In this document: one piece after another, positions 4,231 through 32,853 of the stretch | Numbering within the stretch: position 1 is the first letter of the stretch | How the letters are laid out: each line of letters begins with the position of its first letter | Assembly (NCBI RefSeq): GCF_024323335.1 | Contig: NC_066580.1 | Location: 261,127,332-261,191,331 of the forward strand | Length of the DNA stretch: 64,000 nucleotides | Reading direction: 5' to 3' | Source of the DNA: Lathyrus oleraceus | Lineage: Eukaryota > Streptophyta > Magnoliopsida > Fabales > Fabaceae | Made by a program: the position numbers and the translations under genes | Notes under the pieces: generated by a model | Seen by the model: only the letters and a program-made list of their open reading frames with translations | Told to the model about the DNA's origin: nothing | The model's database searches: none

Positions 4231-4914
4231 TTGTTGTCTCCTGAAAGAGTTATCACTGATAATAGTGCTAATTTGAACAACAAGATGGTTACTGAACTCT
4301 GCACGCGGTTCAAAATAAAACACTCTAATTCTTCTCCGTACCGGCCAAGGATGAACGGCGCCGTGGAGGCTGCTAACAATGTCCAGAAGCTTATACAAAA
4401 GATGACAGTAATGTACAAAGACTGGCATGAGATGTTACCATTTGCTTTTCATGACTATCGCACTTCAGTACGCACTTCGACAGGGGCAGCTCCGTTCTCT
4501 TTAGTCTATGGAATGGAAGCCATCTTACCAGTGGAAGTTCAGGTTCCCTCGCTAAGAATCATGAAAGAGGCGGGCTTAGATGAAGAGGAACGGATTCAGA
4601 CTCGACTCGATCAGATAAATTTGATGGATGAGAAGAGACTTGCGGCTGTATGTCACGGGCAGATATATCAGAAGCGCATGACCAGGGCATTCAACAAAAA
4701 GGTCAAGAGACAAGTGTATCAAATTGGCGACTTGGTAATCAAGTGTATCGTGCTACCGCAAACTGATCCCAGAGGCAAATGGACTCCCACGTACAAAGGG
4801 CCATTTGTAGTTAAGAAGGTATTCTCTGGTGGAGCCATGATACTTGCTACAGTGGATGGCGAAGATTTCCCGCATCCCGTGAACGCGGACATAGTTAAAA
4901 AATACTACGCATGA
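4231..4914 (+). pseudogene. pol: Integrase C-terminal half of element A, open but truncated
   Basis: An open frame of 227 codons. It begins after a deletion joining RNase H to integrase, so the ATG at 4231 is probably accidental. It keeps the second catalytic aspartate (ITDNS) and the glutamate region (NGAVEAAN), the segment with SLVYGMEAILPVEV, and the C-terminal domain ending in VKKYYA. The zinc-binding HHCC domain and the first catalytic aspartate are gone, so it cannot be an active integrase. The C-terminal domain could in principle still fold. The pol stop is directly followed by the hairpin modules at 4925. Confidence 0.82.
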
Positions 4915-4924
4915 AGAAGACCCG

Positions 4925-5110
4925 CTAGATCGACGTATCTAGGCAAAAGTAAGGGCATCCCGGCGAACCAAAAGGGTTCGGGCAAAAATTAGGGATATAT
5001 ATAAAAAAATGTACACCCGGCAAGTCGAAAACCTGAAAAGGTGGCTTGGGCAAAAAAGGGTATCCTGGTGGGCTGAAAACCTGAAAAGGCGGTCCAGGCA
5101 AAAATTAGGG
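4925..5110 (+). other. Four post-pol hairpin modules with GGCAAAA tails (element A)
   Basis: Module 1: CTAGAT (4925-4930) pairs with ATCTAG (4937-4942). Module 2: CGAACC (4964-4969) with GGTTCG (4975-4980). Module 3: CAAGTC (5021-5026) with GGCTTG (5043-5048), one G-U. Module 4: TGGGCT (5069-5074) with GGTCCA (5091-5096), two G-U. Each is followed within three bases by GGCAAAA. Modules 3 and 4 share the loop words GAAAACCTGAAAAGG. The same arrangement follows the pol stop in F, E and G. Confidence 0.72.
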
Positions 5111-5564
5111 ATTAAAGCGTATGACTATGTCCCGGTCTCAGTCAACTTTCATCCAAGTTCGAGGGACTGACCAAGCCAATCACTTCTATCCGACAGCAAG
5201 GGATGAGATGCTCGAAGACATAATGACAGTAGTAGGCTTAAAATCAATAGGACTTCTTCCACATAGCTATCTCTTTGTTTTCGACAATTTCCTCTTACTA
5301 GGATTTCTGTCTCCTTGTACACAAATTGCCTGTTTATAGGCCTCCTTTCAAAATCAATACAACCTTCTTTCAAAAAAGATACTTTTGTTTTTACTTTTTC
5401 TGTTTTGTTTGCGTAAACGTCCATTGATTTAATTTGAATTAATATGTGCATTTGAATATGATCAATGTTTATCAAAAATACGTACATAGAATAGCAATAG
5501 CAATTACTACAAGACTTCGGGATCGAGGATAAGGTCTAATCATGCTTCCAATGAATCCACTACC

Positions 5565-5830: not shown

Positions 5831-6333
5831 ATAACTCATTCATTACATCATTTCACAGCATACGCATGCATACAACATTCGCATTTATTTTCGAAAGCAT
5901 AAAACATCTCATGCATCATGACATAGCATAAAGCTAACTTTTCTTTGCAGGTTAATTATCCTCCTGATATAGTCAAAGTAAGAGGCTCATTCAGGCAGAC
6001 GCCTTTATCAATCACAGACAAGATTCAGATACATATTCCAGATGCAATTCATGGGAACATTCATTCTGACAACACTTCGATATCCTCCTAGCGATGGCAT
6101 CTTTAAGCCCATCCCAGACATTTATTGCAAGTACAACGTATACAGATACAGCCTAACATACGGTTCATTCTGATTCAGCTCAACATATGACTCCTTCAAC
6201 TCAGATACGATCTAGCATACGATCCATTCTGACCCTCAACAACTCAGATACGATCTAGCGTACGATCCATTCTGACCTTCTTCAACTCAAGTACAGTCTA
6301 ATGCACGACCAAGTTAGACCTTCATCTTCCCAT

Positions 6334-8573
6334 ATGCTACCTTCGAACAGGTACATTTCTGGATGGTAGTCCAGTATACGGCTACTCCCTTTCCCAGATG
6401 CTACCTTCGGACAAGTACATTTCTGGATGGTAGTCCAGTATACGGCTACTCCCTTTCCCAGATGCTACCTTCGGACAGGTACATTTCTGGATGGTAGTCT
6501 AGTATACGGCTACTCCCTTTCTCAGATGCTACCTTCGGACAGGTACATTTCTGAATGGTAGTCTAGTATACGGCTGCTCCCTTTCTCAGATGCTACCTTC
6601 GGACAGGTACATTTCTGGATGGTAGTCCAGTATACGGCTGCTCCCTTTCCCAGATGCTACCTTCGGACAGGTACATTTCTGGATGGTAGTCCAGTATACG
6701 GCTACTCCCTTTCTCAGATGCTACCTTCGGACAGGTACATTTCTGAATGGTAGTCTAGTATACGGCTGCTCCCTTTCCCAGATGCTACCTTCGGACAGGT
6801 ACATTTCTGGATGGTAGTCCAGTATACGGCTACTCCCTTTCCCAGATGCTACCTTCGGACAGGTACATTTCTGGATGGTAGTCTAGTATACGGCTACTCC
6901 CTTTCCCAGATGCTACCTTCGGACAGGTACATTTCTGGATGGTAGTCTAGTATACGGCTACTCCCTTTCCCAGATGCTACCTTCGGACAGGTACATTTCT
7001 GGATGGTAGTCCAGTATACGGCTACTCCCTTTCCCAGATGCTACCTTCGGACAGGTACATTTCTGGATGGTAGTCCAGTATACGGCTACTCCCTTTCTCA
7101 GATGCTACCTTCGGACAGGTACATTTCTGAATGGTAGTCTAGTATACGGCTACTCCCTTTCCCAGATGCTACCTTCGGACAGGTACATTTCTGGATGGTA
7201 GTCCAGTATACGGCTACTCCCTTTCTCAGATGCTACCTTCGGACAGGTACATTTCTGAATGGTAGTCTAGTATACAGCTACTCCCTTTCCTAGATGCTAC
7301 CTTCGGACAGGTACATTTCTGGATGGTAGTCCAGTATACGGCTACTCCCTTTCCCAGATGCTACCTTCGGACAGGTACATTTCTGAATGGTAGTCTAGTA
7401 TACGGCTGCTCCCTTTCCCAGATGCTACCTTCGGACAGGTACATTTCTGGATGGTAGTCCAGTATACGGCTACTCCCTTTCCCAGATGCTACCTTCGGAC
7501 AGGTACATTTCTGGATGGTAGTCTAGTATACGGCTACTCCCTTTCCCAGATGCTACCTTCGGACAGGTACATTTCTGGATGGTAGTCCAGTATACGGCTA
7601 CTCCCTTTCCCAGATGATACCTTCGGACAGGTACATTTCTGGATGGTAGTCCAGTATACGGCTACTCCCTTTCCCGGATGCTACCTTCGGACAGGTACAT
7701 TTCTGGATGGTAGTCCAGTATACAGCTACTCCCTTACTCAGATGCTACCTTCGGACAGGTACATTTCTGGATGGTAGTCCAGTATACGGCTACTCCCTTT
7801 CCCGGATGCTACCTTCGGACAGGTACATTTCTGGATGGTAGTCCAGTATACAGCTACTCCCTTACTCAGATGCTACCTTCGGACAGGTACATTTCTGAAT
7901 GGTAGTCTAGTATACGGCTACTCCCTTTCCCAGATGCTACCTTCGGACAGGTACATTTCTGGATGGTAGTCCAGTATACGGCTACTCCCTTTCCCAGATG
8001 CTACCTTCGGACAGGTACATTTCTGAATGGTAGTCTAGTATACGGCTGCTCCCTTTCCCAGATGCTACCTTCGGACAGGTACATTTCTGGATGGTAGTCC
8101 AGTATACGGCTACTCCCTTTCCCAGATGCTACCTTCGGACAGGTACATTTCTGGATGGTAGTCTAATATACGGCTACTCCCTTTCCCAGATGCTACCTTC
8201 GGACAGGTACATTTCTGGATGGTAGTCCAGTATACGGCTACTCCCTTTCCCAGATGATACCTTCGGACAGGTACATTTCTGGATGGTAGTCCAGTATACG
8301 GCTACTCCCTTTCCCGGATGCTACCTTCTGACAGGTACATTTCTGGATGGTAGTCCAGTATACAGCTACTCCCTTACTCAGATGCTACCTTCGGACAGGT
8401 ACATTTCTGGATGGTAGTCCAGTATACGGCTACTCCCTTTCCCGGATGCTACCTTCGGACAGGTACATTTCTGGATGGTAGTCCAGTATACAGCTACTCC
8501 CTTACTCAGATGCTACCTTCGGACAGGTACATTTCTGAATGGTAGTCTAGTATACGGCTACTCCCTTACTCAG
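6334..8573 (+). repeat. 64-bp minisatellite, exactly 35 units
   Basis: The word ATGCTACC recurs at 6334, 6398, 6462, 6526, 6590 and so on to 8574, so 2240 bases equal 35 units of 64 with no net indel. Units differ by a few substitutions (for example GGATGG or GAATGG, GTCC or GTCT). Each unit holds two inverted repeats: TACC...GGTA and GTAGTC...GGCTAC, each around eight bases. A 10-unit (640-bp) block occurs twice: GATGATACC at 7613 and 8253, CCCGGATG at 7673 and 8313 and again at 7801 and 8441. Confidence 0.95.
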
Positions 8574-9030
8574 ATGCTACCTAGTGCACGGTACATTTCT
8601 GAAGTGTAGTCTAGTGTACGACTACTCCCTTTTAGCATCAGATTCAGCCTACTGAACGGCTCATTCTGCAACTCAGATTCGATTTAATGTACGATCCATT
8701 CTGAGCTCCAGCAACTCCAATACGGTCTAACGTACGACCCATTCGGATCCTCAACTACTCAGATGCTACCTAGTGTACGGTACATTTCTGAAGTGTAGTC
8801 TAGTGTACGACCACCCCTTTCATCATCAGATTCAGCCTAACGGACGGCTCTCTCTTCAACTCAGATACGATCTAGCGTATGGTCCATTCTGATCCTTTAT
8901 CCCCAACAGCATATGACACACTCCGACTCCCCAGCGAAGTCGGCAGCCTAATGGATGACTCATTATTCGGTCTAATGTACGACCCAGTGTGGCACCCATG
9001 TCTTCAAATTGGCCTAATGTACGGCTCGAT
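8574..9030 (+). other. Single covarying hairpins after the minisatellite (element A)
   Basis: Short inverted repeats around eight-base loops: GTAGTC/GACTAC (8606-8625, loop TAGTGTAC), GGTC/GACC (8724-8739), TACC/GGTA (8767-8782), AGCC/GGCT (8834-8849), GGTC/GACC near 8965, and wobble versions near 8677 and 8866. Many have outer CAGA...TCTG arms. Stem letters differ between copies while remaining complementary. Confidence 0.7.
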
Positions 9031-9200
9031 CTGAAGCTTTCGTCATCAAACCTCCCGGATGGCATCTTTAAGCCCATCTCCATCAAGACCAACTGTCGAT
9101 TCTCAAGTGCAAATTTTTGGGGCATTCTAGTGTTCAATAATCTTCCACCTCCAAACCACGAATGGCATACACGCCATCCTAACTCTCTCGGTTCAAGAAT

Positions 9201-9216: not shown

Positions 9217-9248
9217 TGTCATACCCCAAAAATTACCCATCATTTTTC

Positions 9249-9249
<1 letters not shown>

Positions 9250-9289
<40 letters not shown>

Positions 9290-9410
9290 GAAAAAAAAAA
9301 ACGAAATAAAAAAAGAAAAAAAAAAAAATTTTAATTAAATAATTAATTAATTAATTAATTAATTAATTAATTAAATAATTAAAATAAATAAATAAATAAA
9401 ATATAACAAA
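9250..9410. repeat. Low-complexity A-rich / TTAA-rich tract in U3
   Basis: A run of more than 40 A with few interruptions, then (AATT)n and (AATA)n. It lies inside the LTR U3 upstream of the TATA box, so it is not the tail of a retroposed mRNA. Confidence 0.9.
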
Positions 9411-9474
9411 TTATTTTGGACTTGGGTCTCCCTCATTCCAAGCCCATTACCCACAAAATTAGTCTATAAATACT

Positions 9475-9482
9475 GAAGTTTC
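9475..9482 (+). promoter_or_regulatory. TATA box of element A LTR
   Basis: TATAAATA follows an AGCCCATT-containing stretch and precedes GAAGTTTCAG. The same layout (TATAAATA then GCACTTCAG) is present in the F LTR at 28191, and an equivalent in D. Transcription probably starts 25-35 bases downstream; this marks the U3/R border by inference. Confidence 0.65.
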
Positions 9483-10294
9483 AGTAGAGGAAAAGGACGG
9501 GGAGTTAGACTTGGAGTTTACACTGGGAGATTCACTGGAGAAAGAAGGAAGAGAAGCAAAATACTCTGAGGTTTCCTTGGAACAAAACCTTGAGGAAAAA
9601 GAAAGAGAGAGAACAGAGAAGGACGGATAGAAACTTTGGCATAGGAACCCTGCCAACCCGGAGAATTCAGAATAAAGAAACCCTGAAGGCAGCTCATCCG
9701 CCCCGAAGCCATCGCCGCCCAATTCCCGCCGCCTAACTCATTCCGATACCACAAGTGGTCAATCCCTTCAACCTTGAATTGGCAAACAGGTTTGCGTATC
9801 TCTATTGTTTATACTTTCAATTGGCCATATCTACACATATAATGCATCATGATTAAATGTTGATATATAATTTGCTTTCGTATGTGAATTTAAATATGCC
9901 TGAATACCCTGAATGTTTGACCATGCTGTTCCTGTGATAAAATGCCATAAAGTTCAAGGTTCCTAACATGGGGCTGTTTTTCTCAAAATTCAAAATCCGT
10001 GGCCGTTCGCCTGGCCTTCGCTAGGCGAGGCAGAGGCGAACGAGACAGTACCTGATTTTTCTAGTCTGTTTTTTTTTATGTTTTTATCATAGCCATGCAT
10101 TATTCATCCTATCCTATTTACTGTTGCGATATTTTTCCGGTGTAATCTTCGATTGCACCCTGATTTGGTATTCTGACATGTTTCTTTTTGAGCTTCGAAA
10201 AGGTTCACATATCCCAGGAAAAGGTTATTGGCTAGGTATTCCACTTTATTTGTGGGATACCCTTGTGGAGTTTTCACCCTAAATTACCTAATTA

Positions 10295-10374
10295 ATTTTG
10301 ATGTATTAATTTTAATGTATTAATTTTAATGTATTAATTTTAATGTATTAATTTTAATGTATTAATTTTAATGT
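10295..10374 (+). repeat. 14-bp tandem repeat in LTR (TTAATTTTAATGTA)
   Basis: About five copies of TTAATTTTAATGTA. The F LTRs carry about four copies at the same place (28968-29035 and 37323-37390), so the array changes length between elements. Confidence 0.85.
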
Positions 10375-11267
10375 GGGAGAATTCCTCCTAATCACCTAAT
10401 TAATTGTAAAACTTTGCCTTTGAATAAGTGATCTTGGACCTCTCTTTGTTGCCTTACGATTACGATATTACGGTCATGTCCCGCGAATGTGGGGATACCC
10501 TTAGCAAAGACCCTTCGGTTAAATCATCATAAAATAAATTATAGTCCCTCGGATGTTGCCTTCGAATATACAACTTTGTCCCTCGATGACCCTCCGATGT
10601 TTCCTACGATTAAATGATGATAGTCCCTTCGAATGCTAAGGTATCCTCATAACTGTTGCCTTCAATGACCAATCGATGACCCTACGATGACCCTTTTACA
10701 TCCAAAGGATAAAACTACTTATTTCTCAATAATAAGGACAGTTTTACCCTCATAAGGATAGGAAATACTCATAAAGACCTTGGGTCGGTATAACTCTTAA
10801 TTGCTGGCTCACAACCTAAAACATTTTTTCACACCTCACACCTTTCAAAATACCTTCAGAAAATCACCACTTGGTATACATTCATACTAGAATCATTACC
10901 GAGTTATATTTTTCTAAACAATTTTCAAAACTAAACGAGATAATCACTTTGTATACATTCATACAAGAATCATTACAAAGTTAAATTCTCTTTTCAAAAC
11001 AATTTTTCTAAACAATTCACAAACACTTTTTTTTAGACAAAAATAATATAAGTGATCGAGCAATTAAGAGCCCATGGATAACCATGGATACAAAGGGTGC
11101 TAACACCTTCCCTTTGTATAATGTACCTCCCGAACCCAAAATCTAAATTAAGGTTTTTCCTGTTCTTTTCCACATTTCCTTATTGGATAAAAGAAAAGTC
11201 GGTGGCGACTCTTGCTAACCGCGACATTGCGATTAAAACCACAAAAAGTCCAGTTCACCGTATGACA

Positions 11268-17645: not shown

Positions 17646-18302
17646 CCAGGGTAATAGGAATAGAATTCCCTTTTGTTTCACTGAAACTCTGAATTTATAA
17701 CCTGATTTTTGTGGACCTGTGGGCTCAAATGAGAGAGACCCAAGTCCAAAAATTTTCTGTTATATTTTATTTATTTATTTAATTTTTTCGTTCTTCATTT
17801 TTTTTTAAACACGTGGGCTTCGCCTAGCAAGCACGACAGTTCAAGAAATTCCTCTGAGCGTAGGTGATTCTGGTGGCTTTTCTTGGGACTCGCTAGGCGA
17901 CCCAATCTGCTCGCCTAGCGAGCATGACAGCTCATGAACAAACTTTTCCTCCTTCAAGATTAATGTTTTGACTGACGAATAGACCCCATTTGAACCTGTT
18001 GGAAGTATCTCAAGCCATTCCCTTGTGTTGACTGATCATCTAAATAGAACCCACAAAGTGTCTTGGATGATACTCAAGCTTCAAACAAAAGATGTTAGTG
18101 ACACATTTTTGTGCTTTTGGTTAGTAAACAAAAGTAAGAGAAACAATTATGTATAATTCAAGCATGCTTGGTGATCTCAAACCAATCACAAGGAGTCCCA
18201 CCCAAAGGCAAAGGGAACCAAGATGTTAAAGATCCTTGAGGCAATGCAAATGCAATGTTATGATGCCATGAGGGATCTTAGGGTCAAAATTGGGGTCTTA
18301 CA
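17646..18302 (-). repeat. Element D: LTR fragment interrupted by B
   Basis: The minus strand begins TGTAAGACCCCAATTTTG, the same tip as the G and H LTRs. After about 270 bases it departs from them and shows CG-rich palindromes (17818-17932) and a TATA box (17699-17691) followed by AGTTTCAGTG, as in the A-type LTR. It stops at 17646 where B starts. No polypurine tract lies before it, and about 960 bases of 3' UTR present in G are missing at this joint. It is therefore probably an insertion into the E 3' UTR; a deleted E 3' LTR is the alternative. Confidence 0.7.
17691..17699 (-). promoter_or_regulatory. TATA box of LTR D
   Basis: TATAAATTC on the minus strand, preceded by GGGTCTCTCTCATT and followed by AGAGTTTCAGTG. 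The surroundings match those of the A TATA box at 9475 although the LTR tips differ. Confidence 0.55.
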
Positions 18303-20234
18303 CATACTCGCATGGAAGATTATCCACAACCAGTTACTGGGTTAATAAAGGATAAATCAACCGCAAAGAAAGGACATCAGGATACCACATACTAGGTATA
18401 AAATGATGACCGATCACAAAGGGGGAAATGATCATTGCCGACAATCGGCGAATGAAAGATGACTCGCTGGGGATACATTGACAAAGGCAATGATCCGGGA
18501 GATATATCACCGGTTACTGGGAGATATACTCAAAAGATGAAGGAATATCAATACCGAATATTGGATAAAGATAACCGTCAAGGAGGGGATTACATCTACC
18601 AGATATTGGGTAGAAAACCACGGGAGAGTAACCGTCATCGGTTAGGATGAACAAAAACAAGGTTACTTCTGCAAGGGGATAAAAATAGGGTTTACAATTA
18701 TCGGTATGAGGGTAGAAAACCACTGACTCCACTAGGGAAAAGATGGACAATTGCTGGTTACTGAGCAATCATTCATCTGAACTAAGGGGAATCGCAGGAA
18801 AAAACACGAGAAGCCAATCTAGGAATAAACTAGAGAGACACAATGAAACAAGACTCATCCCTATGAGGATATAACTCAGGGGAAACTCCATCCCAATATA
18901 TATTCTGGGAGGAAACTAAATTAACAATCATCCACGAGGACATAACTCAGTGGGGAATATGGAAGAAAGGATAAACACTTTCTGCTTATGGGGCTGACTC
19001 TACATGGAGAGATCAAACACAAACATCTGCTTAGGGAGATATATTACCAACTAGCAGGAGACAAGAAATAAAGATATATGGCAAAGAATGCAACATGAAT
19101 ATCTGAATGTTTAAGATCATATGCATATGTGTGTGGTTTATGTATGATGAATGCTGACAAAATAAACATTTCTAACACAAACAGGTCCAACGAATGATGA
19201 ACAAACATATGGTACTACATCTCAAGAGAGAAAGCCAGGCCCAATGGAGAACATCCAATCTGATGGGGATCAGAGATACCAGGAAATAAAGATCTCTGCA
19301 GGGGAATGAACATCAGTCATTCCAGTTGGGGACATGATCATCGCATAGATAAAATCCGCTGTAGAAGCAACTCTTCTAGGGAAATTATTAGAGGGGAGGA
19401 TGGATCTCTGTGGGGAACAACCACCAATCAAAAGCTTCCAAGGTCACCACTAAATACTGCACTACCCAATAGATCACACCTGCTGAGGAGGAAGGATCAC
19501 TACTCTGCTGAAGGAAAGAGGGATGAATACTTTACCAAACACTCTGCTCGGGAGAACAACCGCAAAAGGTTCCAGAGGAAGAGGATACAAGCATGCCAGG
19601 AATATGAACAAATGTCTTACCCTGTTGGGAATCATACCATCTTTGGGAGAGCACTGAAGACATCCCAAGTATCTTTTCATCATTGTGATTGTTCACTTTG
19701 TTTAAAAACAAGTTATATAAAATTCATTTGTTTAAAACAACGATATTTCTCAATTAAAACATGCAAAACATTTGTTGAATAGAAACAAATAAGAGTGCGA
19801 ATGATTGGATAAAGGCTCAAATTTATTTGATGGGATGGTAATCCGCGAATGGCAAGACTCCAAGGATCTTTACAAATTTGAAATTGGTGATATATATTGG
19901 AAAAGGGCTACATTGAACATAATGACCATTTCTCCACCAACTCTGAATCCGATATATTTGAAGCTTCAGTTGATAATGACTGAGCGAGAATCTCTGACAG
20001 ATGATAGCTTGTAGAACAAAGTGTTGTCACGATGCAGTTACTTGCCAAATCCCTAATTTTTGCCTAGATTACCCCAGGGTGAGGTACTCAATCTAGCAGG
20101 ATACATATTCATTTTTTTATGTCTCTAATTTTTGCCTGGATCGCCCTTTCAGGTTTTTGATCCACCGAGACGCTCATTTTTGCCTAAGCCGCCCTTTCGA
20201 GTTTTCAACTTAGCGAGCTATTCTGTTTTTATTT
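18303..20234 (-). other. 3' UTR of element E
   Basis: Non-coding and rich in GGGGA words on the plus strand. It holds inverted repeats with an eight-base loop, for example CTACC/GGTAG (18596-18613) and TTGCT/AGCAA around GGTTACTG (18751-18768). PBS-like words occur, for example GACTCGCTGGGGA (18461-18473, plus strand). Near the pol stop are three hairpin modules (20045-20225). Bases 18303-19790 align with 54496-55900 of G. Confidence 0.75.
20045..20225 (-). other. Three post-pol hairpin modules (element E)
   Basis: On the sense (minus) strand each inverted repeat is followed by GGCAAAA: CTAAG with CTTAG, TGGATC with GATCCA (six perfect pairs, near 20145-20172), and CTAGATT with AATCTAG (seven perfect pairs, near 20065-20105). 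In G the corresponding stems carry G-U pairs at single positions. Confidence 0.7.
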
Positions 20235-21620
20235 TTAGGCGAAGTATTTCTTGACTGCATCTGAATTCACAGGACGAGTGAAATCCTCCCCATCCATAGT
20301 TGTAAGTATCAAAGCACCGCCTAAAAAGGCTCTCTTAACAACATATGAACCTTCATAGTTTGGAGTCCACTTGCCCCTGGAATTGGGCGCGAAAGACAAG
20401 ACTTTCTTGAGCACAAGGTCACCCTCTCGGAACACACGAGGGTTGACCTTCTTATCAAAAGGCTTTCTTCATCCTTTTCTGATATAACTGACCATGGCAC
20501 ATGGCAGTCAATCTCTTCTCTTCTATCAAATTCAATTGGTCATAACGACTCTGAACCCATTCAGCATCAGTCAACTTGGCTTCCATCAAGACTCTCATTG
20601 ATGGGATCTCCACCTCTACTAGGAGTACAACCTCCAAGCCGTAAACAAGAGAGAAAGGGGTTGCCCCTGTTGAAGTGTGGACAGATGTACGATATCCATG
20701 CAAAGCAAATGGCAGCATCTCATGCCAATCTTTGTACGTAACAACCATCTCCTAGATAATCTTCTTGATATTCTTATTAGCAGCTTCAACAGCCCCGTTC
20801 ATCTTGGGTCTGTAAGGAGAAGAATTATGATGTGCTATCTTGAACTCACTACACAGCTCTTTCATCATCTTGTTGTTCAAGTTAGATCCATTATCAATAA
20901 TGATCTTATCCGGCACACTATAACGACATATGAGTTGATTCTTGATAAACTTCACAACCACCTGCCTGGTCACGTTTGCATATGATGCCGCTTCAACCCA
21001 CTTGGTGAAGTAATCAATTGCTACGAGAATAAATCTGTGACCGATGGACGCTTTCGGCTCTATCATGCCAATCATGTCAATTCCCCACATAGAGAAAGGC
21101 CATGGTGATGAAATCACATTCAGAAGTGTCGGAGGAATATGAATCTTATCCGCATAAATCTGACACTTATGGCATTTCTTCACATATTTGCAGCAGTCAG
21201 ACTCCATTGTCAGCCAATAGTAGCCTGCTCTCAACATCTTTCTAGCCATGGCATGTCCATTGGAATGAGTACCAAATGAACCCTCATGGACCTCATTCAT
21301 TAACAGATTTGCTTCGTGTCTATCCACGCATCTGAGCAGCACCATGTCAAAGTTTCTCTTATAAAGCACTTCGCCATTGAGGTAAAAACTGCCTGATAAT
21401 CTCCTCAAAGTCTTTCTATCTTTCACAGATGCCCCAGGCGGGTAAATCTGGCTCTGAAGAAAACACTTAATGTCATAATACCATGGTTTGTCATCTTTCA
21501 CCTCCTCTACTGCAAATACATGAGCTGGTCTGTCCAAGCGCATCACAGTGATATTGGGAACTTCATTCCAAAGTCTAACCACAATCATCGAAGAAAGTGT
21601 AGCAAGAGCATCTGGCATCC
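20235..21620 (-). pseudogene. pol: Integrase of element E
   Basis: It keeps the zinc-binding HHCC domain (THSNGHAMARKM ... CCKYVKKCHKC), the catalytic triad (GIDMIG, IIDNGS, GAVEAAN) and a C-terminal domain ending DAVKKYFA at 20235. A TAG stop at 20752-20754 replaces CAG of G, and an extra G near 20461 shifts the frame before the last 67 codons. Integrase inserts the DNA copy into the genome; this copy cannot be made whole. The order RT, RNase H, integrase fits Ty3/gypsy. Confidence 0.9.
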
Positions 21621-22050
21621 GATTCTCATCTCGAGGAATATGATGGAATTCAACCTCAGTAAAGAATGTTGAAATCCTCCTCGCATAGTCTCTATATGGG
21701 ATGAGGCCAGGATGATTCGTCTCCTATTCGCCCTTAATCTGATTAACCACAAGGGCCGAATCACCATAAACATCAAGATGCTTGATCCTAAGATCAATAC
21801 ATTCTTCCAATCCCATAATACATGCGTCATACTCAGCCATATTATTCATGCATTTGAAAGTTAGCCTTGCTGTAAAAGGAAAATGTGTGCCCTGAGGAGT
21901 AATAATCACTGCCCCAATACCATTTCCATATTGATTCACAATGCCATTAAATACCATGCTCCATCTGGAACCGGGCTCTGACCCTTCATCGAGCGTAGGC
22001 TCATCGCAATCTTTCATTTTCAAATACAGAATCTCCTCATCTGGGAAGTC
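21621..22050 (-). pseudogene. pol: Second (archaeal-type) RNase H of element E
   Basis: The segment SRWSMVFNG ... NMAEYDACIMGLEE ... VYGDSALVVNQIKGE is an RNase H fold placed between the RT-linked RNase H and integrase. A second RNase H in this position is a hallmark of the Tat lineage. The first catalytic aspartate is replaced by asparagine (FNG; G has FDC), and a TAG stop at 21724-21726 replaces TGG of G. Both changes would inactivate it. Confidence 0.85.
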
Positions 22051-23697
22051 ATATTGAACTGACTGATAATCCTCAATTGGTTGATGTGCCAAGTGGTCAG
22101 CCAAGATACTACCTTTTATCGCCTTCTGAGCTCGATACTCAATATCATACTCAGATAACAACATATGCCAACGGGCAACCCTCCCTGTTAAAGCAGGCTT
22201 CTCAAATGTATACTTGATTGGATCCATTTTGGATATCAACCAAGTCGTATGATTCAACATATACTGGCGTAAGTGCTTAGCAGCCCAAGCCAAAGCACAA
22301 CATGTCTTCTCAAGCATTGAGTATCGAGACTCACACTCGGTGAACTTCTTACTCAGGTAGTAGATATCATATTCTTTCTTTCCCGATTCATCTTGCTGAC
22401 CAAGGACATAACCCATTGAGTCTTCAAGAACTGTCAGATACATAATTAACGGTCTCCCTTCCACAGGCGGAGACAGAACTGGAGGCTCAGACAAATACTC
22501 TTTGATACTGTCAAAGGCCTTTTGGCAGTCCTCGGTCCAATCATGATACTGATCTTTCCGGAGGAGCTTGAATATCGGCGCACATGTGGCAGTCATGTGG
22601 GATATAAATCTGGAAATATAATTCAAGCGGCCAAGAAAACCTCGGACTTGCTTCTCAGTTTTGGGCGTAGGCATCTCTTGTATTGCTTGACCTTTGTAGG
22701 ATCAACCTCAATACCTATTTCGCTGACAATAAAGCCCAATAACTTGCCAGAACAGACTCCAAATGTACACTTGTTCGGATTCAGACGAAGCTTATACTTC
22801 CTCAAACGCTGAAAAAGCTTCAACAAGTGCTCAATATTGTCAACTTCCGTTATTGACTTTGCAATCATATCATCAACATATACCTCTATCTCCTTGTGCA
22901 TCATATCGTGAAACAAGGTAGTCATAGCTCGTTGATACGTGGCTCTGGCGTTCTTCAAACTGAAGGGCATCACTCGATAACAAAATGTTCCCCAAGGTGT
23001 GATGAATGTTGTCTTTTCCATATCCTCAGGTGCCATTTTAATCTGATTATATCCGGAAAATACGTCCATAAATGAGAAGACATTGAATTTAGCTGTATTA
23101 TCTACCAAAAACATATCAATATGTGGTAGAGGGAAATCATATTTTGGACTAGCTTTATTCAAGTCTCTATAGTCCACACACATTCGGACTTTTCCATCTT
23201 TTTTAGGCACAGGCACAATATTGGCCACCCATTGAGGATATGTAGAAGTCACCAGAAACCCCGCATCAATTTGCTTCTGAACTTCTTCTTTAATCTTCAC
23301 TGCCATGTCAGGACGAGTTCTTCCGAGCTTCTGTTTCACAGGCACGCACTCAGGCTTCAAAGGCAGGAAATGTTGCACGATATCTGTATCCAGGCCAAGC
23401 ATGTCTTCATATGACCAGGCAAAGACCTCGACATATTCGCGTAGCAACTCAATCAACCCCTTCTTAACAGATTCTTCTAGGAGTCCCCCAATCTTCACTT
23501 CTCGCACACAATCTTCAGACCCCAAGTTGATTGTTTCCAGATTCTCAAGATGTGGCTGAATGATCTTCTCTTCATGCTCAAGTAGACGGGTAATCTCGTC
23601 AGGAATCTCTTCAACATCATCTTCTTCCGCCTCAAATACAGGGAACTCAAAGTTGGGAGATGGTGTTGGATCATTATGATCAATGGGTTTGATCAAC
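22051..23697 (-). pseudogene. pol: Reverse transcriptase and RNase H of element E
   Basis: RT motifs in order: VPVPKKDGKVRMCVDYRDLN, FSFMDVFSGYNQIKM, TPWGTFCYRVMPF and the catalytic YVDD (22869-22880). The gypsy-type RNase H follows (CALAWAAKHLRQYML, LTGRVARWHMLLSEYDIEY). One A is missing near 22690 relative to G, which shifts the frame between RT and RNase H. The exon is taken to begin just after the predicted intron acceptor at 23698. Confidence 0.92.
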
Positions 23698-23961
23698 CTG
23701 CATAGTGATTTTGGATATAAAGAGATTTTAGAATTCAAGCAAAGCAAATCATTATGCAGATGAAAAGATTGATTTTATTCTTATTTTTAGGGTTTTATGT
23801 GATCACCAATTTCATGCAAAAGCGAAAAGGGAAAATAATTGGAAAAACAAACATTTAGCATGAATTTATTGAATGAAAATATCATTGTATTTATGAGCCA
23901 ACAATGTCCTCACTTCTCCTTTTGGCATGGGAGAAGCGTTTTCAAACACAATGAACATTAC
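23698..23961 (-). other. Predicted intron between protease and RT (element E)
   Basis: A 264-bp segment on the minus strand, GTAATG ... TATGCAG. It is AT-rich and has stops in all useful frames. Removing it joins the protease frame (VIHKSK) to the RT frame (LIKPIDHNDP) without a shift. G has the same borders. A spliced intron at this place is described for Ogre elements. The donor was chosen because it keeps the frame in both copies. Confidence 0.72.
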
Positions 23962-24832
23962 TTTGACTTATGGATAACTGTTGGAACATCAACAACAACC
24001 CAATTATTGCAGACCCCTCCAGGGATGATGAAGTTGCCAGAACCTTCTGCATCCTCTTCCACAATAGCAGCAACTTCCTCATCTTGACCGGTGTGGATGA
24101 ATCCACCACTCTTGAACAATCCTTGTTTGTTGAAGACACCAGAAGAATACCCTATGCCAGCCCGAGATTTGTTGTCTTCCAGCTTAATCATTTGCCCCAA
24201 TCCGGCAGTTGTACCATGCTCGATGGCCAACTTTGCATCTTTATAGGACGCAAATGAAGAAGTTCCTTTCTTAATAGGCTCAGCAATAGATAAATCTTGG
24301 AACGGCGTTCCAACTTCATCCTCAGCATCTATATAAGAGAAGGAAGACAAATGGCTAACCAGGAGAGCCTTCTCTCCCCCTACCACCACCAGCTTCTTGT
24401 TTTTAACAAACTTCAATTTCTGGTGTAGGGTGGATGTCACGGCGCCTGCCTCGTGAATCCATGGTCTGCATAATAGACAACTATACGAGGGGTGAATGTC
24501 CATGACCTGGAAGGTGATCAGGAAATCACTTGGTCCAATCTTGACTGGGAGCTCAACCTCTTCAATCACAGTTTTACGAGACCCATCGAAAGCTTTCACC
24601 ACACTCCACTCTGCCTCATGGGAGGCCCCTGATATGACAATTTTGCAAGAGTGGACTTTGGCAACACATTCAATGATGACCCAGTGTCCACCAGGACATT
24701 GGACATGGCATCATCTTTGCAGCTCATAGATATGTGTAATGCCAAGTTGTGGTCTCTTCCCTCCTCAGGGAGATCAGCATCACAAAAACTTAAATTGTTA
24801 CAAGCGGTGATATTTGCAACAATACTATCGAA
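23962..24832 (-). pseudogene. pol: Protease region of element E
   Basis: Aspartic protease with the active site LVDTGSSLNVLPKSTL (DTG at 24688-24680) and a later LLCRPWIHEAGAV, where G has LLGRPWIHEAG, the second conserved protease block. Relative to G, bases are lost near 24605 in QSGVV, shifting the frame. The TAA at 24833 separates it from gag. In an intact Ogre this follows gag in one frame and is cut out of the polyprotein. Confidence 0.85.
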
Positions 24833-27248
24833 TTATTCAATCGTGACGCCATGATCTACATACGCCACATCCAACACCTTCGGCAAAGCTTCTTGGTGTG
24901 GTTCCGAATTCATCAGCAAGGATAGTACAGAGATCTTGGATGGCGTCTGTAGAAGCTGATCTACCACGTTGTACTCACTTCTTTTGATGAGCCTTAGCAT
25001 CTCATCACAGTCTTCTTTCGCATTGCCACTCGGGCCAACAGAGACAGAAGTTTTCAACGTAGAGGCAGGTTTGGCAACAAGTTCCGGATTCGGAGCATTC
25101 ACAGCATCCCCAACCGGGTGTTCAACATAATCAGTAGTATTAGTCCTTCGAACATCAGCTTGAGGTTTCGGCGGAGCCGAGAAGACACGACCGCTACGGG
25201 TCAGGCCGCTGACGTCGGCAATATTAACAACAAATGTAGAGGGCAGGGGCACCTCTTTCCCATTCTCCAATGCCACAACATTGTAGAGATAGGGAACCGC
25301 CTTCTCAGAAGAATATGGCACAGGGCCAGCTGGTTTAATGGTCAAAGAAGGAGAAGCCTTTTGCTTGCTACCATCGTACTTGATGATAACGGGTTCAGGG
25401 ATCCGAAATACTGGAGAAATTACATTGACTTCATCAGCATCTTCGTCAACATTTCGGTTTTGAAGTATCTCAATGACTCCTTCATCCAGCACTTCTTGAA
25501 CATCTTTGCGCACTTGGCGACAACCTCTTTGGTTGACAGAACAAACTCGGCATCTATTGTGGTCGTGCTCGTAATGACTGTACTCACACAGCAATCTATG
25601 CATCTCGACCAGAGATTGTCGAATATGGCTGACATATTTGACTTTGTATTTACTAGGGAAACCTTGGACCATGTTGACAGATTTCCCATGCTCGGGAAAT
25701 GGGTTCTTCTTTACATTAGGACCTACGTCCTCGAAACACAGAATACCGCATCTAACAAGGTCTTGAAGCTTGGTCTTCAGTGGGTAGAAGTTTTCCACGT
25801 CGTGTCCGGGAGCACCAGAATGATAAACACGGTGTAATTCGGGCTTATACCACCACTGGGGGTTGGTAGGTATAGCCGGTGGGTCTCGTGGAGTAATCAA
25901 CTTCCTCTCTATCAAAGAGGGATATAATTCTGCATATGTCATGGGAATAGGATCGAAGATGACCCTTTTCCTCTCGTAGCTCATACAGGCTTGATTACTG
26001 TTTCGAGGCTGGTAAGCCTGCTGTTGAGGACGGTGCTGTCGTTGTTGATATTGCGGATGTTGTTGTTGCTGATTATTGTTGTGATGCTGATACTGCTGAT
26101 TATCTCTGAAAACAGGTGCTATGTGAGCCACCTGATGCTAGTTACCGGTTGGCCGCGCGGTCTTCTTCCTTACTGAGTGTCTTCTTGGTTTAACATGGGA
26201 GGTCACAGCATGTGCCTCGCCATCCTTCTTCTTTCCAAACGTCCCATACCGTTTGGCAGAAGAGCCTTCTTCTCTGGTCAGGCGCCCTTCCCTGACTCCT
26301 TCTTCCAGACGCATCCCCATGTTCACCATCTCGGTGAAGTCAAAAGGAGTACTGGCAATCATCCGCTCGTAATAAAAAGAACTCAAGGTCTTCAGAAAAA
26401 TCTTGGTCATTTCTTTATCCTCCAGCGGGGGCATAATCTGTGCTGCTACTTCTCGCCACCTCTGGGCGTATTCTTTGAAAGTTTCCTTGTCCTTCTGGGA
26501 CATGGCTCTCAATTGATCCCTATCGGGAGCCATATCCACGTTGTATTTGTATTGCTTGACGAAAGCCTCGCCAAGGTCGTTGAAGGATCAAATGTTCGCA
26601 CTGTCCAAGCCCATGTACCATCTTAGGGCAGCACCGGACAAACTGTCCTGGAAGTAGTGAATGAGAAGCTGGTCGTTGTTGGTCTGAGTCGACATTTTCC
26701 TAGCATACATGACCAAGTGGCTGAGAGGGCAAGTATTTCCCTTGTACTTTTCAAAGTCAGGGACCTTGAACTTTACAGGGATTTTAACATTCGAAACCAG
26801 GCAGAGTTCAGCAGCAGACTTGCCAAAAAGGTCCTTTCCTCGAAGAGTTTTCAATTTCTTGCAGAGCTCAAGAAATTGGTCATTCATAGCATCCATCTTT
26901 TCATAGACATCTGGTGTCGTCTACTCTGGGCCTAGTATGCACGACAGGAGGAGGAACAGCAAGGACTGGGCTAGATGCCGGCAGAGAAGCAAAGGTGGGT
27001 GCAGGACCCTCAGGCATGAAGTTGGGAGGCATCCCCCATGGATATCCGGCTGGCATGGCTGTTGGTGCAAAGTGTGCGCTGGCCGCATGCACAATTGAGG
27101 AGACGATCTCAGAGATGATTGTCCTCTTGGGAGAAGTTGAAGGTGTCGGAGACGACTGACTCTGGGCAGCCATGAATGACTCCATCAGGGCAGTCAATCT
27201 GGCTACTTCCTCCTTAAGCTCACGATTCTCTTGTTCCAAATGATCCAT
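24833..27248 (-). pseudogene. gag: Gag of element E
   Basis: N-terminal coiled coil (MDHLEQENRELKEEVARL, start ATG 27248), a Pro/Ser-rich linker, and a capsid-like Retrotrans_gag region (ALRWYMGLDSANI ... KETFKEYAQRWREVAAQI ... IFLKTLSSFYYERM). Then come a Gln-rich stretch near 26050 and a zinc-knuckle region. The two knuckle cysteines kept in G (HCVYHSG...VENCYPL) are R and F here. Stops: TGA at 26588, TAG at 26138, TAA at 24833. A deletion of about 28 bases near 26915 shifts the frame. The start is ambiguous, as the frame is open further upstream. Confidence 0.88.
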
Positions 27249-27565
27249 TAGTTTTGATGCGTTGGCTCGGGTGTAGTACCGGTGAGTCAGCTTGTCTTCA
27301 AAATAAATGAAGAACACAGAGTTAGACCATAGAACAAGAAGTCTGGAGCAAAAACCTGCTTATGCACATGATGCATGCAATGCATATGATTTAATTTTTA
27401 TATCAGAGGAACTTTAGGGTCCTATTTGCAAATATTGGAAGTATTAAACATATGGAAATATCATATCAATAATATTTGGAAAAACATTTTACACCAAAGA
27501 AGTACAGTCTTGGTAACCAAATGATACAATACAAGAGAAAAGGAAAATGAACATCCTATGGAACC
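27249..27565 (-). other. Spacer between ORF1 and gag (element E)
   Basis: About 317 bases, AT-rich, partly open in the gag frame (FFIYFEDKLTHRYYT just upstream of the chosen start). G has an equivalent spacer. A splice or reinitiation signal could lie here; I see none that stands out. Confidence 0.5.
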
Positions 27566-27895
27566 CTAGAAGCAATCATCTAAAGCTCTGGACACAGGAA
27601 GATAAAATGCACGAAGCCTCTTCACCTCCCTCTTGTAGGCTGCCTCCATGTCTGCCTTCTCTTTGGCAAGTCGATCATACTTCCTCTTCCAAAATTTGGA
27701 AGACTGAGGAAGTAGAGAAGTCCATGCATCATCAGGATCGTCTATAACCTGGTGCTCGAGAAACTCTATCAAAGCATCCTTCTCCTTGATCTGCTGAAGC
27801 AACTCCTCTCGTTCACGGATCCAAGCATGCCAACGGTCTTCGTCTCTTAACTCCTCCACTCCTTGGTCAGGGAGGGTTGAAGGCCCAACCACAAC
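27566..27895 (-). pseudogene. ORF1 of element E, 3' part (right of the F insertion in ORF1 sense)
   Basis: The last 110 codons of ORF1: GPSTLPDQGVEELRDEDRW, then a charged helical segment (REELLQQIKEKDALIEFLEH) and the end VSRALDDCF. It continues exactly from the segment at 38285, interrupted by F. G has the same tail at 63485. The helical tail looks like a coiled coil. Confidence 0.9.
27891..27895. repeat. Target site duplication of F, left copy (ACAAC)
   Basis: ACAAC directly before TGTCATA; the same five bases follow the 3' LTR at 38280-38284. Five bases is the usual Ty3/gypsy length. Confidence 0.95.
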
Positions 27896-28034
27896 TGTCA
27901 TACCCTAAAATTTGCCCATTAATATTTCAAGAAATTTTTCAAGGCATTCCGACTCATTTTTATGACACTGATCTTAAAGGAACCAAGGCCCAGCTTACGA
28001 ATGGCCCAATCCAGAAAATGGCCCAAACTGGCCT

Positions 28035-28130
28035 GTTCGCTACGCGCTCGCCTAGCGAACGTTACGTTCGCTACACGCTCGCCTAGCGAACGTTCGCTAC
28101 GCGTTCGCTACCAGCTCGCCTAGCGAAGCT
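28035..28130. repeat. CG-rich palindrome cluster in U3 of F
   Basis: Repeats of TTCGCTA ... TAGCGAA, for example 28036-28042 with 28053-28059, and three further related units, just upstream of the TATA box. Similar words lie downstream at 28635-28720, in the A LTR (10003-10047) and in D (17818-17932). The clusters could be protein binding sites or RNA structures; I cannot decide. Confidence 0.75.
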
Positions 28131-28190
28131 GACAGACAACAAAAAATTTCGGGCTTCACTCCGAGCCCATTAGGTCATGGAAAAAGGCAT

Positions 28191-28198
28191 TATAAATA
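28191..28198 (+). promoter_or_regulatory. TATA box of F 5' LTR
   Basis: TATAAATA after GGCAT and before CCAGCACTTCAG. The 3' LTR copy is at 36546-36553. It lies about 300 bases into the LTR, which implies a short U3 and a long R-U5. Confidence 0.68.
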
Positions 28199-29928
28199 CC
28201 AGCACTTCAGTAACAAAAAGGGAGGACGAAAAACAGAGGGGGGACGAAAACGGAAGAAGACGGACGGAACCCTGGCATAGAAACCTTGGAGATCAACTTG
28301 AAGGACTCCGAGTAAAGAAACCCTGAAGGCCGCTCATCCGCTTCGAAGCTACCACCGCCCAACTCAATCCGGCTCGCCAATTCAAGGCTGCAATTCGATT
28401 GCAAACAGGTTTGCATTACTATTATCGCTTTATTTTCTTAATTTGCATGTGATACCGCTTTATGTTCTTAACTTGCATGTGATATTATAATCGAATTCAT
28501 AAACATATTTGAGGTTTTGCATGTGAATTTAAGTGTGCCTGAATATTGTGAATGCTGAACCATATAATTATGTGTTGGATGCCATAAGCCATGCCGCAGG
28601 TTGAAGTCATACTGTTCTGAAATTCAAAACCCGCAGCCGCTCGCTAGCACATCGCTAAGCGAGCATGTAGCGAGTATTCGCTAGGCCTTCGCTAGGCGAG
28701 GCAGAGGCGAACGGGACAGCCGCTTATATTTCGTTTGTTCTGTGCCATGCTTCTCTGATCTGTTCCCGTATCCTCATACATTGTTTTGCATGACATTTTT
28801 GCTGCTGTTTTTCTTTTGCGGTGTAATCTTCGATTACACCCTGATTTGGTATGCTAACCCGTTTGTTGAATTTTGCAAAGGTTCATATGTCCCAGAAAAA
28901 GATCGTCGTTTAGGTCTTCCACTTTATTTGTGGGATACCCTTGTGGAGACTCACCCTAAATTGCTTAATTAATTTTAATGTGTTAATTTTAATGTATTAA
29001 TTTTAATGTATTAATTTTAATGTATTGATTTTAATGTGGAGGCTCATCCTAATTACCTAATTAACTTTAAAATATGGCCTTTAAATAAATGATCTTGGAC
29101 CTCTCTTTGGTGCCTTACGATATTACGGTATCACGGTCATGTCCCGCGAATGTGGGGATACACTTAGCAATGACCCTTCGATTAAATCATCATAAAATAA
29201 ATCATAGTCCCTCGGATGTTGCCTTCGAAAATACGATTTTGTCTCTCGATGACCCTTCGGTGTAGCCTACGGTTAAATGATGATCGTCCCTTCGAATGCT
29301 AAGGTATCCTTACAACTGTTGCCTTCAATGACCTATCGATGACCCTACGATGACCCTTAAACATCCAAAGGGTAAAATTACTTACTTCTCAATAGTAAGG
29401 ACAGTTTTACCCTCATAAGGATAGGAAATGCCCATAACGACCTCAGGAAGGTATAACTCTCAATTACTGGATCATAACCTAAAACATTTTCCACCCCTCA
29501 CACTTTACACTTTACAAATCCTAGAAAATCACCACTTGGTATACATTCATACTAGAATCATTACCGAGTTATATTTTTCTAAACCATTTTCAAAATCAAA
29601 TGAGATAAATACTTTGTATACATTCATACGAGAATCATTACAAAGTTAAACTCTCTTTCAAACATTTTTTAAGCAATTCACCGACACTTTTCAGACAAAA
29701 ATATAAGTGATCCAGTAATTAAGAGCCCATGGATAACCATGGATACAAAGGGTGCTAACACCTTCCCTTTGTATAATGTACCTCCCGAACCCAAAATCTA
29801 TTGAGGTCTTTCCTGTTCTTTTCCACCTTTCCTTATTGGATAAAAGAAAAGTCGGTGGCGACTCTTGCTATCCGCGACATTGCGATTAAAAGCAAAACAC
29901 CCCAAGTCAGTTCACCGTATGACAGAAC

Positions 29929-29946
29929 TGGCGACTCTGCTGGGGA
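29929..29946 (+). other. Primer binding site of element F
   Basis: TGGCGACTCTGCTGGGGA, four bases after the LTR end, identical to that of A. Confidence 0.9.
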
Positions 29947-30658
29947 AACTTTAAAAAGAGAGGTTACCTTAAAAACAAGATCACTTATTTAAAATTGTTT
30001 GATTTACTTTTAAGGGATTGCTTGGGTATCCTATGCTTGAGTGAAAGATCCTACACCCAGATCTAGTGTACCTTAGGTAAGTAGCAATAGATCATCGCGA
30101 CTATCCGGCGTATACTGGAATGGTTAAAATGATGGCTACGGTTAATGTGACACTTTGGTTGTCCTGATGGTCCTCATGTTATTTGAGGAAAAATTTGGCT
30201 TCCGCGTGGTGTCATCAAAGCATTAACCAGACCTTTAGAACCCTAATTGACTCATCCTGGCCATTAGAAAGTAGTGAGCTAACTGACTTCGGTTCCGACT
30301 GGGGCTTGGTTGAGACTCGATACTACACTCCTTGAGATTGGACTTTAGGGAAGCTTCGGTCAACCACTTGGTGTTGCACTGAAGTGGACTTAAAGGAAGG
30401 TCAATGATTGGAGATCCTTCTAGAACCCGGTTACTATTCTAGGACAGGTTGAACCAACCAAACTTCAGTGGGGAGGGTACTTACCTATGGAACTCATGCA
30501 AGCCTTAAACCTTAGGAATGATTGTTGTGTGACTTGCTTGTGCTTGTTATTTACATAGCATCATAATATCATGACATCATAACATCATAACATCATAACA
30601 TCATGCCATTGTACTAACCATTTCGAGGACTTAGGGATTTAACTTTTCTCTATTTCGT
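29947..30658 (+). other. Leader of element F
   Basis: Closely matches the A leader (611-1330), including the CATAA-type tandem repeat near 30560-30605. It stops where ORF1 should begin. Confidence 0.75.
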
Positions 30659-30683
30659 AAAAAAAAAAAAAAAAAAAAAAAAA
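30659..30683 (+). repeat. Run of 25 A at the ORF1 deletion scar
   Basis: In A, TCTATTTTGTAA is followed by the ORF1 start, and ORF1 ends about 1.3 kb later. In F, TCTATTTCGTAA continues as pure A and then resumes with GAGTTTCC, corresponding to about 2728 of A. So ORF1 is replaced by an A tract. Confidence 0.9.
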
Positions 30684-30828
30684 GAGTTTCCTTTTTTTGT
30701 TGGTTTACGTAAAGTTAAATTCCAAAAGTCCTTGAAAACATTTCATACATTGCATAGCACAACATAACATTGCATAACAGGTACTCTAAAGGGATCAATG
30801 TTCTCACGGTTTTCCTCCAAACAGAAAA

Positions 30829-32842: not shown

Positions 32843-32853
32843 AAGAGACCCGC

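Follow-up and report, generated by a model that had tools for sequence, protein, structure and literature searches.

We analysed a 64,000-nucleotide (nt) stretch of Lathyrus oleraceus DNA (RefSeq assembly GCF_024323335.1, contig NC_066580.1, positions 261,127,332 to 261,191,331 of the forward strand), hereafter the window, which holds two long terminal repeat (LTR) retrotransposons, A and B, on its plus strand and two more, C and D, on its minus strand. In A and B, the region from pol to the 3' LTR holds a family of short hairpins that share a nearly fixed 8-nt loop, while the letters of their stems vary and remain complementary. We conclude, with a probability of about 0.85, that this zone specifies folded sense-strand RNA whose hairpins are kept by selection. 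The hairpins had been noticed in an earlier note on the same DNA; that observation is confirmed here, and the family is wider than was reported.

The motif TARYGTAC occurs 50 times in the window, as against 3.1 times expected from dinucleotide shuffles, and 42 of these occurrences are located inside two zones, 6143-9033 in A and 34021-36068 in B. A typical unit reads CAGA-TAC-NNNN-TARYGTAC-N'N'N'N'-CAT-TCTG : an outer arm is followed inwards by a 3x3 internal loop and by a 4-bp inner stem that closes the 8-nt loop. Across the units of both elements, the nearly fixed consensus of this loop is UARYGNAC. A second hairpin type, with a 6-bp stem (GTAGTC/GACTAC), lacks the CAGA outer arm and is frequently located after a TACC/GGTA unit. 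Apart from the tandem arrays described below, 36 units were listed in A and B together; these were chosen with the stems partly in view, and the inner stem is fully paired in 30 of them.

All hairpin groups of A and B are read on the plus strand. The upstream group of A (6143-6317) is made of four 30-nt two-tier hairpins at 6143-6172, 6202-6231, 6245-6274 and 6288-6317, the fourth of which has an A.C mismatch in its inner stem. The downstream group of A (8571-9033) contains hairpins at 8571-8600, 8606-8625, 8639-8668, 8674-8703, 8717-8746, 8760-8789, 8795-8814 (A.C mismatch), 8827-8856, 8862-8891, 8938-8967 (degenerate), 8962-8991 and 9004-9033. For B, the loops of the upstream group (34021-34454) start at 34032, 34061, 34211, 34270, 34313, 34356, 34399 and 34436, and those of the downstream group (35544-36068) at 35555, 35598, 35628, 35667 (one mismatch), 35702, 35742, 35824, 35872 (broken), 35907, 35983 (broken), 36007 and 36050. 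The positions in the earlier note were correct for GATC/GATC at 6252-6267 with its TCAGA/TCTGA outer arms, GTAGTC/GACTAC at 8606-8625, GGTC/GACC at 8724-8739, TACC/GGTA at 8767-8782 and AGCC/GGCT at 8834-8849, and the A.C mismatch was seen in the copy near 8797 that had been described as mismatched. The loop pattern TA(A/G)(C/T)GTAC given there does not cover the copy at 8834, which has the loop TAACGGAC. Since GATC is its own reverse complement, the copy at 6252-6267 alone cannot separate an inverted from a direct repeat. As a side observation, the hairpin zone is flanked by copies of the stretch GATGGCATCT(T/A)TAAGC(C/T)CATC, itself a near-palindrome, at 6093-6113 and 9058-9078 in A and at 34140-34160 and 36093-36113 in B.

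An unbiased scan of the window for one loop carried by many stems was not specific, because A-rich loops had 10 stems against 8 for TAATGTAC, and five block shuffles gave 7-11 stems for 8-nt loops. Therefore the scan was discarded as evidence and the case was built on tests in which the loop is selected first. Sites with at least seven of the eight letters of TARYGTAC were collected in the zones 5990-9090 and 33990-36110, the stems being ignored in the choice and G.U pairs allowed. Among the 30 non-array sense sites obtained from both 3' untranslated regions (UTRs), the 4-bp stem is complete in 26, has three of four pairs in 3 and one of four in a single site. Outside the zones none of 100 loop-selected sites possesses a full 4-bp stem (0/56 on the plus and 0/44 on the minus strand). 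Likewise, the minus strand inside the zones has full stems at 0/7 non-array and 0/35 array sites, all 35 of the latter being paired at three of four positions. The array sense sites were kept apart from this count: 36 were found by loop score, 12 with four and 24 with three of the four pairs. With a looser cut of six letters, several unpaired sites emerge (5924, 6134, 6287, 34588, 35789, 35941, 35948 and 35978).

According to the earlier note, stems no more complementary than shuffled copies would speak against selection on pairing. Here 13 of the 16 distinct arm pairs are fully paired, whereas shuffling of the right arms gave 5.3 on average and reached 13 in 0 of 50,000 trials. The covariation tests rest on three sets of units. 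Alignment A1 is gap-free, has 29 rows (28 distinct), was picked with the stems partly in view and omits 10 of 39 units with differing outer arms; a larger set comprises all 39 units (37 distinct), and the set of 30 loop-only sites (28 distinct) removes the bias of stem selection. A covariance model made from A1 gave 58 matches at E values of up to 10. Every one of them lies on the plus strand in the two zones whose copies had supplied the model, and the same model had no match in C or D up to that E value.

In A1, 92.0% of the inner-helix cells are paired, compared with 78.6% after column shuffles and 6-41% with slid partners, and the value for the outer helix is 80.4%. The slid-partner control gave 86% paired in register vs 19-43% slid, and 0 of 500 column shuffles reached the observed paired cells, double-changed cells or covariation score. 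The outermost inner pair in A1 appears as G-C (13), A-U (8), C-G (1), U-A (1) and G.U (2), the second as G-C (15), A-U (7) and G.U (5), and the third as U-A (15), C-G (8) and U.G (2). At three of the four inner positions both partners have changed, and two Watson-Crick states occur there together with a surviving G.U or U.G state on the sense strand. Across the 16 distinct stems, G.U outnumbers A.C on that strand by 9 to 3, a ratio that is unusual under arm shuffles (0.002). Counterpart units of A and B at 9015 and 36050 differ at three inner pairs with pairing intact, and the unit at 35691-35720 departs from the CAGA/GATC type by two outer and one inner pair, all compensated, while its internal loop is still open.

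A tree-aware null was obtained by simulating substitutions on FastTree trees built from unpaired or from all columns, with branch counts and column rates kept. For the 28 distinct loop-only rows, 94.6% of the inner cells are paired, compared with 60.6% (unpaired-column tree) and 71.2% (all-column tree), values as high being reached in 0/4000 simulations each; double-changed cells number 30, against 10.0 (3/4000) and 4.4 (0/4000) expected from the two trees. Inner-stem pairing in the aggregate is hence kept beyond phylogeny. With all 37 distinct rows, the paired fraction gave P values of 0.0000 and 0.0010 (2000 simulations per tree) and the count of further pair types 0.333 and 0.0245. Shuffles, slid partners and simulations all support the earlier proposal that pairing is retained while stem letters vary, the pattern expected under selection.

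After pol, all four elements share a 52-nt three-tier hairpin, identified in their alignment at A 5062-5113 and B 32990-33041 on the plus strand and at C 20120-20171 and D 56250-56301 on the minus strand. Each of its 56 cells (14 pairs in four elements) is a standard pair, and both sides have changed at four pairs (A-U to G-C, C-G to U-A twice and U-A to C-G). When the partners were slid by 1-3 columns, 17-57% were paired; 3 of 500 shuffles matched the paired fraction and covariation score, and 84 of 500 matched the number of double-changed pairs. Folding of the single sequences of this domain is not unusually stable. The four sequences are independent of the repeat copies and offer suggestive evidence that the zone may work as folded RNA. 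A series of hairpins, each with a GGCAAAAATTAGGGA-like tail, was also observed directly 3' of pol at A 4912-5125 (+), B 32842-33055 (+), C 20040-20240 (-) and D 56165-56370 (-), and one of them reads CTAGAT-CGACGT-ATCTAG in A and CTAGGT-CGACGT-ACCTAG in B, one compensatory pair apart.

Cousin hairpins, sparser than those of A and B, are present in the minus-strand 3' UTRs of the pol-bearing elements C and D. Those of C (18302-20238) have an 8-nt YAGTAACY-like loop, with first loop bases at 18763, 18608, 18519 (one T.T mismatch), 18394 and 18339, and include ATTGCT-CAGTAACC-AGCAAT, TCTACC-CAATATCT-GGTAGA and ATACC-TAGTATGT-GGTAT. Those of D (53536-56370) have first loop bases at 54919, 54768, 54531, 54283 and 54047 and include CCTACC-TAGTAACC-GGTAGG and TAACC-CAGTAACC-GGTTG. 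Hairpins that combine a five-bp Watson-Crick stem and an 8-nt loop were counted 9 times in D vs 2.9 under the null (0/200) and 6 times in C vs 2.2 (7/200); other loop lengths are raised as well (6, 10 and 12 nt in D at 14-18/200; 4, 7 and 10 nt in C at 10, 15 and 6/200). The exact motif YARTAACY, a consensus chosen post hoc, is paired (at least four pairs, G.U allowed) at 6/7 UTR sites of C and D and at 0/11 sites elsewhere, and its number is not raised (18 vs 15.4 expected), the pairing in the UTRs alone being so. Because TACC-TAGTGTAC-GGTA of A and B and TACC-TAGTAACC-GGTA of D are identical at 13/16 positions, common descent of these hairpins is plausible.

The zone between pol and the 3' LTR also contains tandem arrays. 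The A array (6327-8632, plus strand) consists of about 36 copies of a 64-bp unit with two hairpins, TACC-TTCGGACA-GGTA and GTAGTC-YARTATAC-GGCTAC, whose loops have diverged from TARYGTAC. In all 33 regex-matched units of the about 36, the first loop is TTCGGACA or TTCTGACA and the second is CAGTATAC, TAGTATAC or TAATATAC. Across these 33 units the outermost pair of the outer arm is C-G in 22, T-A in 6, T.G in 3 and C.A in 2 (Fisher P 0.0017, calculated on copies that are not independent), and a C.A mismatch stands beside the second loop in 5/33. In the B array (34450-35579, plus strand, 43/97 bp), 23 copies read AGTC-TAATGTAC-GACC and contain a single A.C mismatch; an alternative GTCTAA/TTAGAC stem is also present. 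In the form (G)GTCTAA/TTAGAC(C), this second stem shares bases with the 8-nt-loop hairpin at 34352-34378 as well as in the B array; in the array the first stem is one pair short and the alternative stem intact, as if the fold had switched. As the arrays do not hold the best-kept form of the motif, their amplification is probably a by-product, and a function, if any, would reside in the non-array units.

At odds we put slightly short of even, the selected RNA structure is a multi-copy cis-acting protein-binding site, with packaging as the first candidate role and export as the second. A protein that reads the loop, the stem doing no more than present it, would be expected to leave the loop constant and the stem free to vary; each hairpin would then display its loop to a sequence-reading protein, with the stem as a mere scaffold. 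As in packaging signals, A and B carry numerous stem-loops whose loop motif is shared and whose stems are free, and many weak sites per RNA might jointly label the full-length transcript for packaging into particles. More tentatively, the reader of the loops would be an RNA-binding protein encoded by an autonomous relative, with its Gag (or ORF1 product) as the likeliest candidate, and the RNA would be marked for packaging in this way. The LTRs of A and B are 99.2-99.5% identical while the coding parts are broken, so the zone was kept through recent cycles; young insertions that retain it without most of gag and the reverse transcriptase (RT) domain are consistent with a cis signal that lets an autonomous relative package their RNA. 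Elements short of these parts could still be mobile if the hairpin sites are retained. Hairpin-bearing units may be amplified, perhaps by template jumps in reverse transcription, and would then yield long arrays in which the motif decays. A broader proposal, which we regard as doubtful, is a 'loop code' in the 3' UTRs of the Ogre lineage, where lineage-specific 8-nt loops (UARYGNAC in A and B, YAGUAACY in C and D) would be read by the lineage's own Gag next to a covarying post-pol hairpin domain; non-autonomous elements would live off autonomous ones by keeping the code, and the hypervariable arrays and satellites of legumes would represent run-away amplification of these RNA signals.

Several results weigh against the reading of these hairpins as selected, protein-read RNA. 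Folding of the whole zone is not unusually stable (z -0.96 sense and -1.86 antisense for 8560-9060), and the 36-nt units fold about equally on both strands (mean -7.8 kcal/mol sense, -8.7 antisense), the inner stem being part of the best fold in 24/30 units on the sense and 21/30 on the antisense strand. Adjacent GATC copies are able to pair with one another instead, and one 124-nt stretch reaches z -3.0, but by means of pairing between adjacent units. Whole-zone thermodynamic stability was set aside as evidence. Shuffles reach the observed count of pairs with at least one double change in 134/500 cases and, for the inner helix, in 407/500, so that this count is not unusual. The outer arms, which the earlier note had pointed out (for example at 6244-6248/6271-6275), are present in most units, but their covariation support is marginal: for 28 type-1 rows, P was 0.052 and 0.093 for the paired fraction, 0.0285 and 0.0165 for double cells, and 0.087 and 0.0505 for pair types. 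No column pair was significant in an R-scape-like G-test (our own script, few rows, all column pairs), so that individually significant covarying pairs were not found; the best stem pair had E 0.30 with 37 rows and 1.07 with 28 rows, and in the 28-row set a non-stem pair (E 0.23) outscores every stem pair. Strong aggregate tests without a single significant pair support the structure as a whole, not pair by pair. The difference G.U minus A.C is not significant under arm shuffles (P 0.6). The most amplified copies are altered, either in the loop (all 33 matched units of the A array) or in the stem, which is mismatched in 23 copies of the B array. For the cousin hairpins, C and D hold about five copies each with a consensus picked after the hairpins had been seen, loops of 10 nt show the same degree of enrichment as those of 8 nt in C, and at six of eight letters the sites are paired in 3/40 (C) and 0/44 (D to 54480) vs 55/2271 elsewhere, with no clear excess. 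Finally, no result obtained here ties the loops to Gag.

The main rival, which we consider improbable, accepts the same selected hairpins but lets them serve to export unspliced full-length RNA from the nucleus or to stabilise it. The Ogre intron is partly spliced (PMC6317226; here and below, what is said of a paper cited by its PMC number refers to the available part of its text), and since it is lost from some transcripts only, unspliced RNA must exit the nucleus. Such a role would suit the location of the zone, downstream of pol and ahead of the 3' LTR, as well as the covarying three-tier hairpin after pol in all four elements, and the RTE of mouse IAP and the MTE of musD act in splicing-independent export (PMC12786077). 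However, the same source describes the MTE as a single complex structure, not dozens of small hairpins, and states that plants rely on TREX factors and not on the TAP/NXF1 receptor. A mutational origin is unlikely in our opinion: short-range template switching during replication or reverse transcription would copy arm onto arm and leave complementarity without function. Template switching is able to create and restore RNA stems (PMC8794818), may be favoured in the reverse transcription of tandem hairpins, and agrees with the lack of significance for single covarying pairs. A copied whole arm would nevertheless close the 3x3 internal loop, which is Watson-Crick in 4/66 cells of 22 type-1 units; the remaining 62 speak against copied palindromes, the letters being conserved and the cells therefore not independent. 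The compensated outer and inner changes around the open internal loop at 35691-35720, the common G.U intermediates on the sense strand, and the lack of inverted loops (no full stem at any of the 42 minus-strand loop-like sites inside the zones, 35 array sites being three-quarters paired) point in the same direction. Template switching as the source of the compensatory changes is thereby only partly excluded.

Similarly unlikely is the explanation by relatedness only, in which a few ancestral palindromic monomers spread and the variety of stems reflects founders without later constraint. It is in keeping with the handful of stem types and the free decay of array copies, yet it leaves unexplained why founders that have loop, internal loops and geometry in common should differ in the letters of their stems, and it is opposed by the tree-aware nulls and by the A/B counterparts at 9015 and 36050. 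A role at the DNA level, as cruciforms, dyad protein sites or recombination seeds that yield satellites, seems very unlikely to us. Tandem arrays and, in Lathyrus, satellites do arise in the same zone (PMC7004042), but a dyad-reading protein should fix the arms rather than the loop, and G.T is tolerated above A.C on the sense strand. Kissing-loop dimerisation was rejected under a criterion of six or more self-complementary bases: GTAC is present in 20/30 loops and a self-complementary 6-base stretch in 2/30, and in C and D the GTAC palindrome is absent from the CAGTAACC-type loops. Protein coding, or an antisense open reading frame (ORF) of Retand type, between pol and the 3' LTR was rejected as well, the longest stop-free run in six frames being 128 aa in A and 114 aa in B.

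We know of no cis-acting RNA signal for Ogre-type elements. A known RNA family was rejected as the identity of the hairpins, as no Rfam family attained its gathering score at any place in the window. The nearest functional likeness is to packaging signals of small RNA viruses, because satellite tobacco necrosis virus (STNV) likewise uses many stem-loops with one shared loop motif, AXXA (PMC3593212). The signals of STNV and MS2 resemble the present hairpins in having many stem-loops per RNA with a common loop motif; they are, however, dispersed over the viral genome and have been demonstrated to function in assembly together with coat protein, whereas the hairpins here are clustered in one non-coding zone. 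The RTE and MTE are alike in being cis-acting structured RNAs of LTR retroelements, and they differ in their animal export route and in that the available text of PMC12786077 describes no many-copy motif for them. The hypervariable tandem repeats of Tat/Ogre 3' UTRs (cited in PMC7004042; minisatellites of Gmr9/GmOgre, PMC3305785) occupy the same place, from pol to the 3' LTR, with units of 26-105 bp in soybean (PMC3305785) and of 43 and 64 bp here. In both papers these repeats are treated as fast-changing, whereas the non-array units described here are hairpins with covarying stems; the terms 'hairpin', 'secondary structure' and 'palindrom' are absent from the main text of both.

In the open-licence literature, mostly represented by titles and the openings of abstracts, no description of a covarying hairpin motif in Ogre was found; Macas et al. 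2009 (Gene 448:198) lies outside that scope. A literature search with the sequence letters of five stretches gave no match. When viral contigs were searched with a 16-base pattern, 15 stretches had one match each, taken as chance, and longer patterns had none; protein look-ups in viral contigs revealed no relative, and a pattern search of genome contigs revealed no outside copy of the motif. RNA structure is present in a zone hitherto treated as 'hypervariable repeats', and the hairpin motif may bear on why Ogre 3' UTRs grow tandem arrays and satellites. Ogre-type elements account for much of the DNA in some legumes, with 45% of the Lathyrus sativus genome (PMC7004042), and a repeated covarying hairpin offers a way to put packaging or export to the test, along with the mobility of gene-poor copies and the origin of satellites.

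The 3' LTR of A (9217-11267, plus strand) starts with TGTCATACCCC and ends with GTATGACA; by LTR comparison the 5' LTR ends at 588 and starts beyond the edge of the window, and the pair is 99.15% identical over the 591 aligned positions of the visible part. Element B (27896-38279, plus strand) is bounded by LTRs at 27896-29924 and 36251-38279 with the 5-bp target-site duplication ACAAC, and its LTRs are 99.46% identical over 2033 positions. These identities indicate that both insertions are young. LTR length is about 2 kb and pol is disrupted in both elements, which are Ogre-like and non-autonomous. The RT-bearing frame of C (374 residues, RT domain 180-341) is matched in B at residues 14-85 and in A at 19-77, and the gag frame of D (351 residues) is matched in A and B at residues 220-320 alone (E up to 1e-5); at this threshold, the catalytic part of RT and most of gag from C and D have no match in A or B. 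The pol remnants of A and B have 58-79% amino-acid matches to RNase H and integrase of C. Upstream of its gag remnant, A retains an intact ORF of 449 aa (1314-2663; DUF7745, E 1.9e-123) despite the broken gag and pol, and B has no upstream ORF of at least 200 aa.

Element C contains RT, then RT_RNaseH_2 and RVT_3 in 21727-22674(-), followed by integrase in 20755-21618(-). In Ogre and Retand, RVT_3, an RNase H of archaeal type, is placed after RNase H and before integrase (PMC6317226), and the order in C therefore fits their arrangement. The features of Ogre/Tat (Ty3/gypsy) are accordingly found in the window: RVT_3 at this place, fully checked on C alone, an extra ORF upstream of gag in A, and long LTRs in A and B. 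The frames checked in D were gag, protease and integrase, and C and D are about 85% identical. B appears to be inserted within C, as the C-D alignment (C 18302-27895, D 53535-63813, both minus) ends at 27894, where B starts. The UTR of C is ~900 bases shorter than that of D, and the missing portion adjoins the LTR. The LTRs of B carry a 31-bp tandem repeat of GTTCGCTACRCGCTCGCCTAGCGAAC type at 28035-28108 and 36390-36463, and runs of CGCTAGGCGA resembling this repeat were observed in the LTRs of A and C.

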